Positions 27,215-31,337 of a stretch of DNA of 64,000 nucleotides are shown one piece after another. Made by a program: the position numbers and the translations under genes. The notes beneath the pieces were generated by a model, which was given only the letters and a program-made list of their open reading frames with translations, made no database searches and was not told the origin of the DNA. The DNA lies in the NCBI RefSeq assembly GCF_030269365.1, contig NZ_BSTF01000011.1, forward strand, positions 124,001 through 188,000, given 5' to 3'. Positions within the stretch are counted from its first letter, which is position 1. Each line of letters opens with the position of its first letter. The stretch comes from Lentzea sp. NBRC 102530. GTDB taxonomy: Bacteria; Actinomycetota; Actinomycetes; Mycobacteriales; Pseudonocardiaceae.

Positions 27215-28360
27215 TCAGGCAAGTGCTTCCGTGGGCGACTGGCGGGCCGCCCGCACCGCGGGATAGACGCCGGCGATGGCGCCGATGAGGATCGCCGAGC
27301 CCACTCCCCCGAGCAGGGCCGGCCACGGCAGTGCCGCAGGCCAGTGCTGGCTGATCGAATACCCGGCCGTGACCGCGATGCCCACGATCACGCCGACCAG
27401 CCCGCCCAGACCTGACAACAACACCGACTCGGTGAGGAACTGCCACCGGATCTGCCGCCGGGTCGCCCCGAGCGCCCGCCGCAGACCGATCTCCCTGCGG
27501 CGTTCCAGCACCGAGATCACCATCGTGTTCGCCACGCCGACGCCACCCACCAACAACGCGACTCCGCCCAAACCCAGGAACAGCGCGTTGTAGGAACTCT
27601 CGGCCAGCTGCTGCGCCTCCAGCGCCTCAGACGGCCGGGAAACCTTGACCTCGTTGGACTTCTGCGGGTTCAGCGTCGGGCCGAGCAGGGTGCGGACGTT
27701 GTCCACCTGGTCCGGCGACGTGCGCACGTAGACCGTGTTCGCGTGGCCCTCGAACCCGAACGCCTCCTTGGCCGCGTCCCAGCCGACCAGCGCCGACCGG
27801 TCGATCTCCGGCGAGAGCGGCAACGGCCCGAGGATGCCGACGACCGTGAACCACTGGCCGTCGATCCACAGCTGCACCCCCGGCTTCTCGATGCCGAGCC
27901 TGGCCGCCGCGGTGCCCCCGAGCACCACCGACTTCTCGCCCGGCGACAGCCACCGGCCCTCGCGGACCTCGGCGCTCAGCACCTTCAGCAGGTCCTGCTC
28001 GGCCGCCTGCACCTGCAACCCCAGCGTGTCGCTGGACGGCACCAGGTCGTTCTTGCGGACGCTGGCGCTGACCTTGCCGGTGGCGCTCGCCGCCGACACC
28101 GCCCCGATCCGCTTGGCCATCGGCACCGCGGTCTCCGGCAGCTTCGCGTCCTGGCCGAAGAGGTCCTGTCCGGGTGCGGCGGTGAGGAGGTTGGTGCCCA
28201 GCTTGGACATCTTCTCGCTCAGAGCCGCCGCGCTGGAGGCCGGGATGCCGACGACGGCGACCACGGCGGCGATGCCGATCGCGATGCCCAGGGCGGAGAG
28301 GACCGCGCGGATCGGCCGGGTCTTCATGCCGAAGAACCCGAGGCGCAGCAGGTCGATCAC
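27215..28360 (-). CDS. ABC transporter permease, MacB/FtsX type
   Basis: A 381-residue permease with one N-terminal helix, a large extracytoplasmic MacB_PCD-like domain (about residues 40-240) and three C-terminal helices with the FtsX signature (GVANTMVISVLERRREIGLR, then RALGATRRQIRWQFL). It was originally directly downstream of the ATPase gene now at 29638; a TnpB element now separates them. Its GTG start and the SD sequence GGGAGGG at the left flank of the element are intact. Probably exports an antibiotic, peptide or lipoprotein with the MacA-like protein. Confidence 0.9.
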   Translation of the reverse strand: MIDLLRLGFFGMKTRPIRAVLSALGIAIGIAAVVAVVGIPASSAAALSEKMSKLGTNLLTAAPGQDLFGQDAKLPETAVPMAKRIGAVSAASATGKVSASVRKNDLVPSSDTLGLQVQAAEQDLLKVLSAEVREGRWLSPGEKSVVLGGTAAARLGIEKPGVQLWIDGQWFTVVGILGPLPLSPEIDRSALVGWDAAKEAFGFEGHANTVYVRTSPDQVDNVRTLLGPTLNPQKSNEVKVSRPSEALEAQQLAESSYNALFLGLGGVALLVGGVGVANTMVISVLERRREIGLRRALGATRRQIRWQFLTESVLLSGLGGLVGVIVGIAVTAGYSISQHWPAALPWPALLGGVGSAILIGAIAGVYPAVRAARQSPTEALA

Positions 28361-28413
28361 GATGCCCTCCCTTCAACAGCCCTCGTCCGATCTGTCATGT
28401 CGCTGCCGATAAG

Positions 28414-29631
28414 TTGTCGTTCGTGCGAACGGCCTACAAGTGCCGGGCCTACCCGACCTCCGATCAAGCCGCAGTGCTTTCCCGAACCTTCGGTTGTGTA
28501 CGTCTCGTGTGGAACAAGACGCTCGGTGAGCGGATTCACCGCTACCGCAACGAAAACGTGCGCACTTCGTATCGAAGGACAGACGCGACGCTGACCGAGT
28601 GGAAGCGAGGTGACGAGCTCGCGTTCTTGTCGGAGGTGTCGTGCGTGCCGCTGCAGCAGACGCTGCGGCATCAACACACTGCGTTCCAGAACTTCTTTTC
28701 GGGACGTTCCCGCCATCCCAGGTTCAAATCGCGGAAGTGCCGTCAGAGTGCGCACTACACCAGATCGGCGTTCCGCATGCGCGGTGGCTCGCTGGTCCTG
28801 GCCAAGATGACTACCCCGTTGCAGTTCACCTGGTCGTTCGGTGACGTGGACGTCACCGAGTTGGCCCCGACCATGGTCGTCGTCTCCCGCGAACCCGATG
28901 GACGCTGGTACGTGTCCTTCGCTGTGGAATCCGCGCGAACCACCCCAGCCCCGGTGGCGAACCACGCGATTGGAGTCGATCTCGGACTGACGAACTTCCT
29001 CGTGACCAGCGATGGCGTCCGAGTGGCCAACCCGCGGCTTCTCACCCGAAAGGCGCGAAACCTCGCGCGCTACCAGCGCAGGCTGGCTCGCTGCCGCGCC
29101 GGAAGCAACAACCGCCTCAAGGCGAAGGCCAAGGTGGCCCGCGCGCATCGGAAGATCCGGAACGCCCGACAGGACTTCCTTCACCGCACCAGCACCCGGC
29201 TGGTGCGATCTGCCGACGTGATCGCGATCGAAGACCTCAACGTACGCGGCATGATGCGCAACCGAAGGCTCTCCCATGCCATCGGCGACGCCGGATGGGG
29301 CGAGTTCCGCCGACAGTTGGAGTACAAGTGCCAACGCGCCGGCCGAACGCTGGTGGTCGTCGACCGCTGGTTTCCCTCCAGCAAGACCTGCTCCCAGTGC
29401 GGGCACCTGCTCGCGGAGATGAAACTGTCCGCCCGGCACTGGACGTGTCCGGGTTGCCGTGCCCGGCACGACCGGGACCTCAACGCGGCGAAGAACATCC
29501 TTGCGGCTGGTCGAGCCGTGACCCGAGACGTCTCGGGTGATGCCTGTGGAGCTGATGTCAGACGGCAAGGAACACCCCTTCCGCAATCGGCTGCGAAGCA
29601 GGGACCCGATGCCGTGAGGCTCGGCGCGTGA
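28414..29631 (+). CDS. tnpB: TnpB RNA-guided nuclease (OrfB, IS605 family)
   Basis: A 405-residue TnpB. The N-terminal helix-turn-helix part begins RTAYKCRAYPTSDQAAVLS. The RuvC nuclease residues are all present: Asp in GVDLGLTNFLVTSDG, Glu in VIAIEDLNVRGM and Asp in ARHDRDLNAAKNIL. The zinc ribbon is CSQCG at the first pair and CPGC at the second. Length and order match active members, so an intact nuclease is plausible. The start is uncertain: TTG at 28414 or GTG at 28423. The last 35 codons overlap the predicted guide RNA scaffold. Its codon use is somewhat less GC3-rich than its neighbours. Confidence 0.93.
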   Translation: MSFVRTAYKCRAYPTSDQAAVLSRTFGCVRLVWNKTLGERIHRYRNENVRTSYRRTDATLTEWKRGDELAFLSEVSCVPLQQTLRHQHTAFQNFFSGRSRHPRFKSRKCRQSAHYTRSAFRMRGGSLVLAKMTTPLQFTWSFGDVDVTELAPTMVVVSREPDGRWYVSFAVESARTTPAPVANHAIGVDLGLTNFLVTSDGVRVANPRLLTRKARNLARYQRRLARCRAGSNNRLKAKAKVARAHRKIRNARQDFLHRTSTRLVRSADVIAIEDLNVRGMMRNRRLSHAIGDAGWGEFRRQLEYKCQRAGRTLVVVDRWFPSSKTCSQCGHLLAEMKLSARHWTCPGCRARHDRDLNAAKNILAAGRAVTRDVSGDACGADVRRQGTPLPQSAAKQGPDAVRLGA

Positions 29632-29641
29632 GCGAAGTCAA
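29500..29641 (+). ncRNA. Predicted reRNA/omega RNA scaffold of the TnpB element
   Basis: In known TnpB elements the guide RNA scaffold is the 3' end of the tnpB transcript ending exactly at the right end of the element, with the flank serving as guide. Here that region contains a perfect 18-base palindrome (29521-29538, ACCCGAGACGTCTCGGGT) and a second hairpin near 29611-29625. The 5' limit is a guess; the 3' end at 29641 comes from the insertion junction. Confidence 0.45.
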
Positions 29642-30288
29642 ACGATCACCCCGTCCCGCACCTCGACGCGACGGGGAGCCCACGCCGCGATGTCCCGGTC
29701 GTGCGTGATCATCACGATCGTCGTGCCGTCGGAGTTGAGGCTCTCCAGCAACTCCAGCACCCCGGCCCCGTTCTTCGTGTCCAGGTTCCCGGTCGGCTCG
29801 TCGGCCAGCAGGATGCCCGGCGAGTTCACCACGGCCCTGGCGATCGCCACCCGCTGGCGTTCGCCGCCGGACAGCTCGTGCGGCTTGTGCAGCGCCCGGT
29901 GGATCAGCCCCACCCTGTCCAGAGCGGACATCGCAAGAGCGCGTCTCTTCGAGCGCGGCACGCCGGCGTAGACCAGGCCCGAGGCCACGTTCTCGATCGC
30001 GGACAGCCCGTCGGTGAGGAAGAACTGCTGGAACACGAACCCGATCGTGCGCGCCCGCAGCGCGGACAGGGCGTTGTCCGACATCACCGAGACGTCGTTT
30101 CCGTCGATCTCGACCTTGCCTGCGGTCGGCTTGTCGAGCGTGCCCATCAGGTGCAGCAGCGTCGACTTCCCCGAGCCGGACGGTCCCACGATCGCGAGCA
30201 TCTCCCCGCCCCCGACGGTCAGGGAGACGTCGCGCAACGCCTGCACGCCGCCGGGGTACGTCCGGCTCGCGTGGTCGACGGTGATCAC
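29638..30288 (-). CDS. ABC transporter ATP-binding protein, MacB/LolD type
   Basis: A 216-residue ATPase. Walker [22 protein letters not shown]-loop [11 protein letters not shown], signature [15 protein letters not shown], Walker [17 protein letters not shown] and H-loop [11 protein letters not shown]. The stop codon TGA is now supplied by the TCAA right end of the TnpB element, which restores the original stop. GTG start overlaps the MacA-like stop by 4 nt. Energises the MacB/FtsX-type permease encoded across the element. Confidence 0.93.
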
Positions 30289-31337
30289 TCGGTGGTCACC
30301 ACCTTCATGCCCTCGCGCAGGCCCTCGCCCTGCACCTCGACCTGGCCCTTGGCGAAGATGCCGACGGTGACCGGGATGGTCCTGCCGTCGTCGGTGACGA
30401 GGCCGTAGCCGCCCTCGTTCAACGCCAGCAGCGCGCCGATCGGCACGGCCAGGACGTTCTGCTTCTTCGACACGGTGAACAGCGCGGTGACGCTGCCGCT
30501 CTCGATGCCCTCGGCGGCCTTGGGGTCGTCGACGGAGATCGTCAGCACGATCTTCGGCTTGGAGCCCTGGTTCGGGTCGCCGGTGGTGCGGGTGATGCCG
30601 TTGATGGTGCCGGTGGTGGGCTTGCCGCCGGAGATGGACAGCTCGACCTTCTCGCCCTGCTTGGCGAGGCGTTGCTTGGCCTGGTCCAGTTCGACGGTCA
30701 CCGCGCGTTCGGTGCCGGTGACCTTCATCAGGTCGCCGCCCGCCGGCGCGCCGAGCTGGGCGGTCAGCGACGAGACGCGGATCGCTCCACTTTGGATGAT
30801 CACGTCACCGGCGCCGAGCTTGCCGGTCTGTTCGAGGCCGAGCGCCTTCTGCCACTTCCTCAGCGCCGAGGCGGTGTACGAGGTGAACTTCTCGTCGGGG
30901 GCGCCGAAGTCCTTGAACCCCAGTGCGGCGAGGTTCTCCTCCACCACCTTGACGTCGGGTCCGTTCGACATGCCCGCTTCGAGGTCTCGGTAGAGCGGCA
31001 TGTCGGCGTAGAACAGCGGCACCGGTTTGGCGTCCGAGTGGAACACCGGTCTGCCGCGCTCGATGACGTCGCCCTGCTTCGGCAGTGCCGTGACGGTGCC
31101 GCTTTTCCGGCTGGCCAGAGCTCGTTCCGAGCCGTGGCCGAGCTGGCCGGTGACGGACTGCTGGTCGGCGAGGTTCGTCTTCCTGACGGGCGCCGTCTTC
31201 GACGGGTCGTTCTGCAGCGGGGCGGCGTTGGCCTGGTCGGCCGCGATCCTGGTGAGGACCACGACCCCGCCGGTGCCGAGCACGACGGCGGCGACCAGGG
31301 CCGCGATGACGACCTTGCGGTTCACGCGGCGTTTCAT
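30285..31337 (-). CDS. MacA-like efflux adaptor with peptidoglycan-binding domain
   Basis: A 350-residue secreted or anchored adaptor. Signal anchor at residues 8-30 ([20 protein letters not shown]), then a biotinyl-lipoyl-like half domain ([17 protein letters not shown]), an inserted peptidoglycan-binding motif ([18 protein letters not shown] to [15 protein letters not shown]), and C-terminal beta-barrel and MP domains ([20 protein letters not shown]). This PG-binding variant is common in actinobacteria that lack an outer membrane. Overlaps its neighbours by 4 nt each side, so one operon with the lipoprotein and ABC genes. Confidence 0.87.

Follow-up and report, generated by a model that had tools for sequence, protein, structure and literature searches.

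A TnpB element long established in an ABC transporter operon of Lentzea, with ends placed where the flanking genes need a stop codon and a Shine-Dalgarno sequence

How can an insertion sequence persist between two genes of the same operon? Such insertions are expected to be costly, given that operon genes share a transcript and in many cases are coupled in translation. Overlapping gene pairs are described as coupled in this way (PMC10666635), so that an insertion into an overlap would otherwise be expected to hurt. The question is raised by a 64,000-nucleotide stretch of the genome of Lentzea sp. NBRC 102530 (hereafter the window), in which a tnpB gene lies, on the opposite strand, between the permease and ATPase genes of a MacAB-like operon. 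The operon combines an ABC ATPase (PF00005) with a permease that contains the MacB_PCD and FtsX domains (PF12704 and PF02687, respectively). The relevant features, in window coordinates, are the following:

27215..28360, minus strand: MacB/FtsX-type permease, 381 aa, GTG start (PF12704, PF02687)
28356..28360, plus strand: ATCAC, the motif targeted (NTCAC/NTCAT across the family), which reads GTGAT on the minus strand and includes the permease GTG start
28361..29641, plus strand: TnpB element, 1281 bp, with limits set by 15 empty junctions; ends agree with Actinoallomurus purpureus copies elsewhere
28361..28413, plus strand: left end of 53 nt, short relative to the 143-155 nt of long-ended Lentzea copies
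28365..28370, minus strand: GGAGGG, Shine-Dalgarno-like for the permease, from the left end of the element, 4 nt before the GTG
28414..29631, plus strand: tnpB, 405 aa (PF12323, PF01385, PF07282; PDB TnpB matches; motif alignment)
29637..29641, plus strand: right end GTCAA, which becomes TTGAC when read on the minus strand and there provides the TGA stop of the ATPase
29638..30288, minus strand: ABC transporter ATPase, 216 aa (PF00005)
29642..29661, plus strand: predicted omega RNA guide stretch, the right flank, that is, the 3' end of the ATPase gene
30285..31337, minus strand: 350-aa product with a peptidoglycan-binding domain (PF01471, the sole match), encoded upstream in the operon; from its position, possibly a periplasmic adaptor

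The tnpB product contains the HTH, OrfB and Zn-ribbon/TNB domains of IS200/IS605 TnpBs (PF12323, PF01385 and PF07282), all above cut-off. The D-E-D residues of the RuvC nuclease are present at positions aligned to a PDB chain, and the motifs GVDLG, IEDLN and DRDLN as well as the CxxC...CxxC pattern are intact. The nearest solved chains are 9yyg, an AI-designed nuclease, and the TnpB structures 8h1j and 8bf8. Comparison with relatives suggests that translation may start at the GTG at 28423. The gene fills the 1281-bp insert, and a search for the Y1 transposase TnpA (PF01797) returned no matches either in the insert or in the entire window genome, so that the original description of the element as TnpB-only holds. 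TnpB-only elements are a known class and, therefore, the missing Y1 TnpA does not affect membership in IS200/IS605. The window genome encodes four additional TnpBs (53-55% protein identity), and a PF01797 match was detected in 11 of the 24 Lentzea genomes. Antisense to tnpB, there is a match to the Rfam family RF02743 (Saccharopolyspora sRNA 389; Sernc389) at 28613-29204 on the minus strand (121.8 bits, with a gathering threshold of 74); an antisense RNA within tnpB may be a feature of the family.

What did the site look like before the insertion? A close ortholog of the permease is present in 23 of the 24 Lentzea genomes compared (all except G018), and in 15 of these the insert is absent and the ATPase and permease genes are directly joined. 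In 13 of the 15 empty alleles, the two genes share a 4-nt GTGA overlap (..GATCGTGTGATCGAC.. or ...ATCGTGTGATCGAC... or a close variant) that combines the ATPase stop with the permease start; the remaining two have ATGA (G019) and a TGATG-type junction (G014). A GTGTGA overlap is found at the orthologous junction in 4 of the 7 loci from other genera viewed by eye; the other-genus genomes listed number 11. Set against the empty alleles, the insert is bounded by GATCAC (28355-28360) and ACGATC (from 29642), and the TGA inside the motif at 28356..28360, read on the minus strand, is the ATPase stop of the empty allele. The last ATPase codon is GTT in the window vs GTG in the empties, both encoding valine.

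These comparisons change the interpretation of the locus. The original prediction placed the start of the element at 28372 and joined ...CCCTTCAA (ending at 28376) to ACGATCACC (starting at 29642). The arithmetic of this join is correct: the TCAA end of the element does rebuild the ATPase stop, with the TCA at 29638-29640 read as TGA, both flanking coding frames are intact, and the insertion between the two ABC genes is base-exact, without target duplication, and of the IS200/IS605 type. Most of the interpretation fared worse. The 15 empty alleles lack a spacer, the left boundary is at 28361, and the sequence TTTGAAGGGAGGGCATC is not found between the ATPase and permease genes in any of them, nor is a junction with a spacer and a Shine-Dalgarno sequence. 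Because the insert starts at 28361, the Shine-Dalgarno sequence that had been credited to the host, and that the permease was thought to retain, belongs to the element. The TTCAA at the presumed left boundary is private to the window copy among the eight occupied genomes and is rejected as the target motif. Alignment with relatives, which the prediction itself had named as the comparison that could refute it, thus revealed a different junction, with none of the 15 empties fitting the expected one. Nor is the insertion recent: 8 of the 23 genomes carry the element or a remnant at this site, and the full TnpBs found there are only 75-83% identical pairwise. A recent, single insertion into an ATPase-permease pair separated by a Shine-Dalgarno spacer, which would now lower permease expression, is compatible with the join arithmetic; however, it is refuted on both junction and age, and we regard it as exceedingly improbable.

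The eight occupied genomes include five with a full tnpB in an insert of about 1.28 kb, namely, G000 (the window), G007 (L. californiensis), G009 (L. flava), G020 (L. terrae) and G023 (L. xinjiangensis), and three with remnants of about 894, 218 and 101 nt, start codon not counted (G011, G004 and G013, respectively). The first two remnants match parts of the window element in BLAST; the third gives no BLAST match to it, although its ends, judged by eye, are similar. In all eight, remnants included, CCTCC (GGAGG on the permease strand) is retained 4-5 nt before the permease start, despite the shortening and extensive divergence of the rest of the left end around it. This conservation points away from lowered translation of the permease, as far as the sequences indicate.

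The ends of the family are delineated independently of the window by A. purpureus, in which 10 copies with tnpB DNA identity of 90-96% are found. Because these copies lie at different places, the limits of their similarity define the ends of the element: TTCAC|CTAGTCCTCCGGAGG...GGAAGTCAA, also TTCAC|CTAGTCCTCCGGAGGATG... and ...GGAAGTCAA|. Among the relatives, the target motif is NTCAC or NTCAT, which on the opposite strand reads GTGAN or ATGAN, where a start codon and a TGA overlap. On that strand, the right end becomes TTGAC, with its TGA in frame with that of the motif, and the left end places GGAGG or a similar run a few bases ahead of the start codon in the motif. It follows from this geometry that an element inserted antisense at a GTGA or ATGA overlap returns a stop to the upstream gene and adds a Shine-Dalgarno-like sequence to the downstream gene. 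At the window locus, the element would have landed 3' of ATCAC, the overlapping start and stop read backwards; its TCAA right end would have returned the ATPase TGA in frame, and its left end would have brought GGAGG to a position a few bases upstream of the permease GTG; translation of both genes should therefore persist. The geometry is directly observed, and from it we infer a role of the ends as signals for translation. Translational coupling of the ATPase and the permease via the overlap is lost in the occupied allele.

The ends at this site are short. The distance from the tnpB stop to GTCAA is 4-5 nt in the site copies vs 52-53 nt in six other Lentzea copies, and the left ends span 53-62 nt vs about 150 nt in long-ended copies. 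Short right ends are found at other sites as well (L078, L081 and L082) and hence are not a mark of the window site. With only 4-5 nt before GTCAA, the omega RNA of the site copies may be crippled. In the left end, CTGAAGTCCTCCGA or something close to it recurs at unrelated sites, and the CCTCC of the left end could be part of a palindrome used by TnpA (CCTCCGGAGG in A. purpureus).

Is the window site special in this respect? We read four other insertion sites in Lentzea (gene labels here and below were assigned from the peptides by eye), and in three of these the empty alleles have TCAC or TCAT running straight into the right flank of the occupied allele. Together with the window site, these three show insertion 3' of a short motif without target duplication; their frames were checked by eye, in some rows only. 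At a livH/livM-like junction, 20 of 23 rows are of the empty type, two are occupied and one has TCAA. At a sigma-factor-like site, 22 of 24 rows are of the empty type, one is occupied and G019 is unlike the rest, with G000 a few codons shorter. At the L105 site, 21 of 24 are of the empty type, two are occupied and one is a contig end. At the fourth site (L120, in G012), the empty alleles contain a stop and a short spacer without overlap, and the occupied row still scores for both features, so that the coincidence in the occupied state is no proof of an earlier overlap.

A census of 59 Lentzea TnpB copies found an antisense start at the motif in 50, a rebuilt antisense stop in 37 and both in 35 (four of these 35 being the window site in other species); with shared sites collapsed to 45 distinct ones, the counts are 36, 26 and 24, respectively. 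Ends were identified by regular expression and genes by thresholds on length and GC3. The census covers 59 of the 60 TnpB matches, the G011 remnant at the window site being dropped. L053 and L259 (upstream) and L058 (downstream) are missed by rule and were left out, their peptides appearing fine by eye; L051 scored for both features under an earlier rule and only for the upstream one here. Under the same rules, 168 genes other than tnpB, drawn from the window and from 45 retrieved loci, gave 9 starts, 5 stops and a single case of both. Random segments, for which single features were counted only with both end patterns so that only the joint count is comparable, gave both in 0 of 3000. Divergent neighbors with native Shine-Dalgarno sequences are rejected as the cause of the start coincidence, given 9 of 168 controls vs 50 of 59 TnpB copies and the recurrence of CTGAAGTCCTCCGA. 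The four other TnpBs of the window genome (L257, L258, L259 and L260) all abut an antisense start, and two of them also rebuild a stop by rule; their neighbors, by eye, are a GH4-like gene, a lipoprotein gene, a pntB-like gene and one more.

Insertion could be aimed at such junctions, or it could occur anywhere and last only there. In an earlier test, both features were present in 15 of 43 rows, against backgrounds of 12 among 386 occurrences of the motif within these flanks and 11 of 779 among all TCA[CT] sites of the window. The 15 rows divide into 11 of 13 for Lentzea (four being the window site) and 4 of 30 for other genera, and A. purpureus, with its multiple copies, has both features in 0 of 9 rows and the start alone in 2 of 9. 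Because the pattern is weaker outside Lentzea, survivorship appears likelier than targeting, the contrast between the young A. purpureus copies and those of Lentzea being suggestive only, as it is confounded by genus. Filtering of this kind could also operate on ends without any role in translation. Given that the motif and the right end both carry TCA, any antisense stop at the motif would be rebuilt by the mere grammar of the element, only insertions at gene borders would survive, and CCTCC would be a transposase-binding sequence. This account coincides with the one we prefer in all respects except for the role of CCTCC, and it agrees with the 0 of 9 A. purpureus copies that possess both features despite having the same CCTCC. 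The retention of CCTCC in all eight occupied Lentzea genomes, remnants included, in left ends that have otherwise been shortened, speaks against it and fits selection for a ribosome-binding site. We consider the grammar-only account rather unlikely, albeit one to be taken seriously, and prefer the reading in which the left end does serve the permease.

We next consider how long the element has been in place and how it was inherited. Among the copies compared, the five full TnpBs from the site form one clade, with support of 99/97 for protein and 100/100 for DNA. In the DNA tree, G009 and G020 together split from the rest (97/95), matching the species tree (five loci, 3.9 kb, 24 genomes); in the protein tree, these two are not grouped. 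The window copy pairs with G023 in the TnpB tree (85/79) vs G007 in the species tree (100/99). The ratio of TnpB to species distances is 1.4-2.3 (ten non-independent pairs, r 0.66), with corresponding values of 1.5 and 1.2 for two further shared sites. The clade, the tree and the distances fit descent from one insertion, as judged from these sequences. The occupied genomes are scattered over the species tree, implying at least 7 changes, and a single occupied clade is rejected (p-AU 3.7e-107 for the five-locus tree and 2.7e-7 for the permease alone). A single gain would require 10 losses, each leaving an overlap. Because the ends at the site are short and there is no Y1 match in the window genome, such repeated exact loss is difficult to explain; the candidates are excision by a transposase encoded elsewhere and replacement by empty alleles. 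Under the scenario we favor, the ancestor shared by about 19 sampled Lentzea species probably already carried the insertion, which would then have been lost many times.

The patchy distribution could alternatively result from repeated entry, whereby a TnpB lineage adapted to this site homes between Lentzea species by cutting the empty allele and being copied in by recombination. The match of the presumed guide to the empty alleles (0-4 mismatches in 20 nt) also speaks for homing. Two other sites are in line with it. At the livH/livM-like junction, TnpBs from different clades (L063 in G018 and L057 in G011, 80% identical) occupy the same nucleotide, with one clade rejected at p-AU 0.01, which implies either independent insertions or replacement; at L105, with 21 of its 24 rows empty, the two occupied species are distant and their TnpBs form a clade (100/99). 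However, when co-converted flanks were sought on the permease and ATPase sides of the window site, the divergence between occupied alleles was not below that between occupied and empty ones, and the TnpB tree broadly, even if not fully, tracks the species tree. We therefore consider homing unlikely as the main route, and continue with the single old insertion. Additional sites are common to two Lentzea species (L262/L269, L264/L265, L271/L279, L258/L280 and L260/L270), so that patchy sharing is common and not special to the window.

The surviving tnpB genes appear to be under purifying selection. The dN/dS of the site TnpBs is 0.17-0.29 in all 10 pairs, and that of copies elsewhere is 0.19-0.25 in eight pairs. 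Purely neutral decay of the five full copies is rejected on the strength of these values, yet three other copies are remnants and one of the five has lost a catalytic residue. In the latter, G023 (L. xinjiangensis, L050), the first RuvC motif is GVGLG, with glycine in place of the aspartate that is equivalent to D191 of ISDra2 (PMC8612924), and the third motif is HGRD, in an open frame of 399 aa; judging by its sequence, this is a possible nuclease-dead copy resembling TldR. The purifying selection, the constancy of the site and the reduced ends, together with an open frame in a copy that seems nuclease-dead, are what would be expected if the host had domesticated TnpB for some benefit to the operon, for example, RNA-guided regulation, as TldRs do for flagellin genes. 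Nevertheless, the RuvC residues are intact in four of the five full copies, three of the eight copies are remnants, 15 of the 23 genomes do without the element, and the dN/dS resembles that of copies at other sites. Domestication thus seems quite improbable to us, and the cause of selection is more plausibly sought in the element itself.

For ISDra2, the right-hand flank is reported to serve as the guide, and the nuclease to cut the rejoined donor site beside the motif (PMC8612924). By analogy, the stretch at 29642..29661 is the predicted guide of the window copy. The first 20 nt of the right flank of the five full site copies differ from the 15 empty alleles by 0-4 mismatches. In 14 of these 15 alleles, the matching stretch adjoins TCAC or TCAT; in the occupied copy, it is preceded by GTCAA, not by the motif. 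A working TnpB would accordingly be expected to attack incoming or newly formed empty alleles. Gene-drive action between plasmids has been described for a TnpB element (PMC11870625). By extension from these systems, we infer that retention is the most likely reason for the selection on tnpB: an empty allele, whether newly arrived in the cell or formed there, would be cleaved by TnpB bound to an omega RNA with the 3' end of the ATPase gene as its guide, to the advantage of the occupied allele. The G023 copy, without the D191-equivalent aspartate and with its frame still open, counts against retention by cutting.

Taken together, the locus probably harbors an old, immobile-looking TnpB element of the IS200/IS605 type that inserted antisense into a GTGA overlap, replaced the lost signals with its own ends and has been kept by retention. 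The sister elements at many gene junctions most likely are found there because insertions at such places do no harm. Going further, the ends of the family might have been shaped for translationally silent insertion between co-translated genes, with the site then held for long by a nuclease aimed at the empty allele; we advance this broader proposal tentatively, as possible and somewhat short of likely.

The element resembles ISDra2 and the TnpB-only elements of the IS1341 type in its TnpB domains, RuvC residues, 5-nt motif and lack of duplication, as well as in the right end that runs into the would-be guide flank and in its PDB neighbors, 8h1j and 8bf8. It differs from them in the motif, here NTCAC/NTCAT, in the absence of a Y1 TnpA match in the genome, in the shortened ends at this site and in the location of these ends where the flanking genes need a stop codon and a Shine-Dalgarno sequence. 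Like TldRs, nuclease-dead TnpB-like repressors described as TnpB derivatives that lack a transposase and lie beside a host gene (PMC13418256), it is a transposase-free TnpB next to host genes, but the window copy keeps its RuvC residues, and only G023 among the five full copies lacks the first aspartate. IStrons, which combine IS605 or IS607 elements with a group I intron, are described as another route to harmless insertion of an IS605-type element (PMC4227781); they splice out of the RNA, whereas here nothing is removed and the ends would replace the translation signals. Homing endonuclease genes and TnpB gene drive (PMC11870625) share the cutting of the element-free allele, which in our case is predicted from sequence, with no co-conversion of flanks seen.

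The TnpB family and the idea of retention are already known. A literature search that covered few subscription journals found nothing on TnpB ends that double as a stop codon and a Shine-Dalgarno-like sequence. Such ends at gene junctions, with most copies in the genus so placed, may be new, for which a search of this scope is weak evidence. If the proposed scenario is true, it amounts to a route to harmless insertion that requires no splicing, whereby the ends of the element replace exactly the signals that the insertion destroys. It would help explain why many old, single-copy tnpB genes persist without a transposase, and the Lentzea loci would provide replicated natural insertions, along with empty relatives, for a direct test of TnpB retention.
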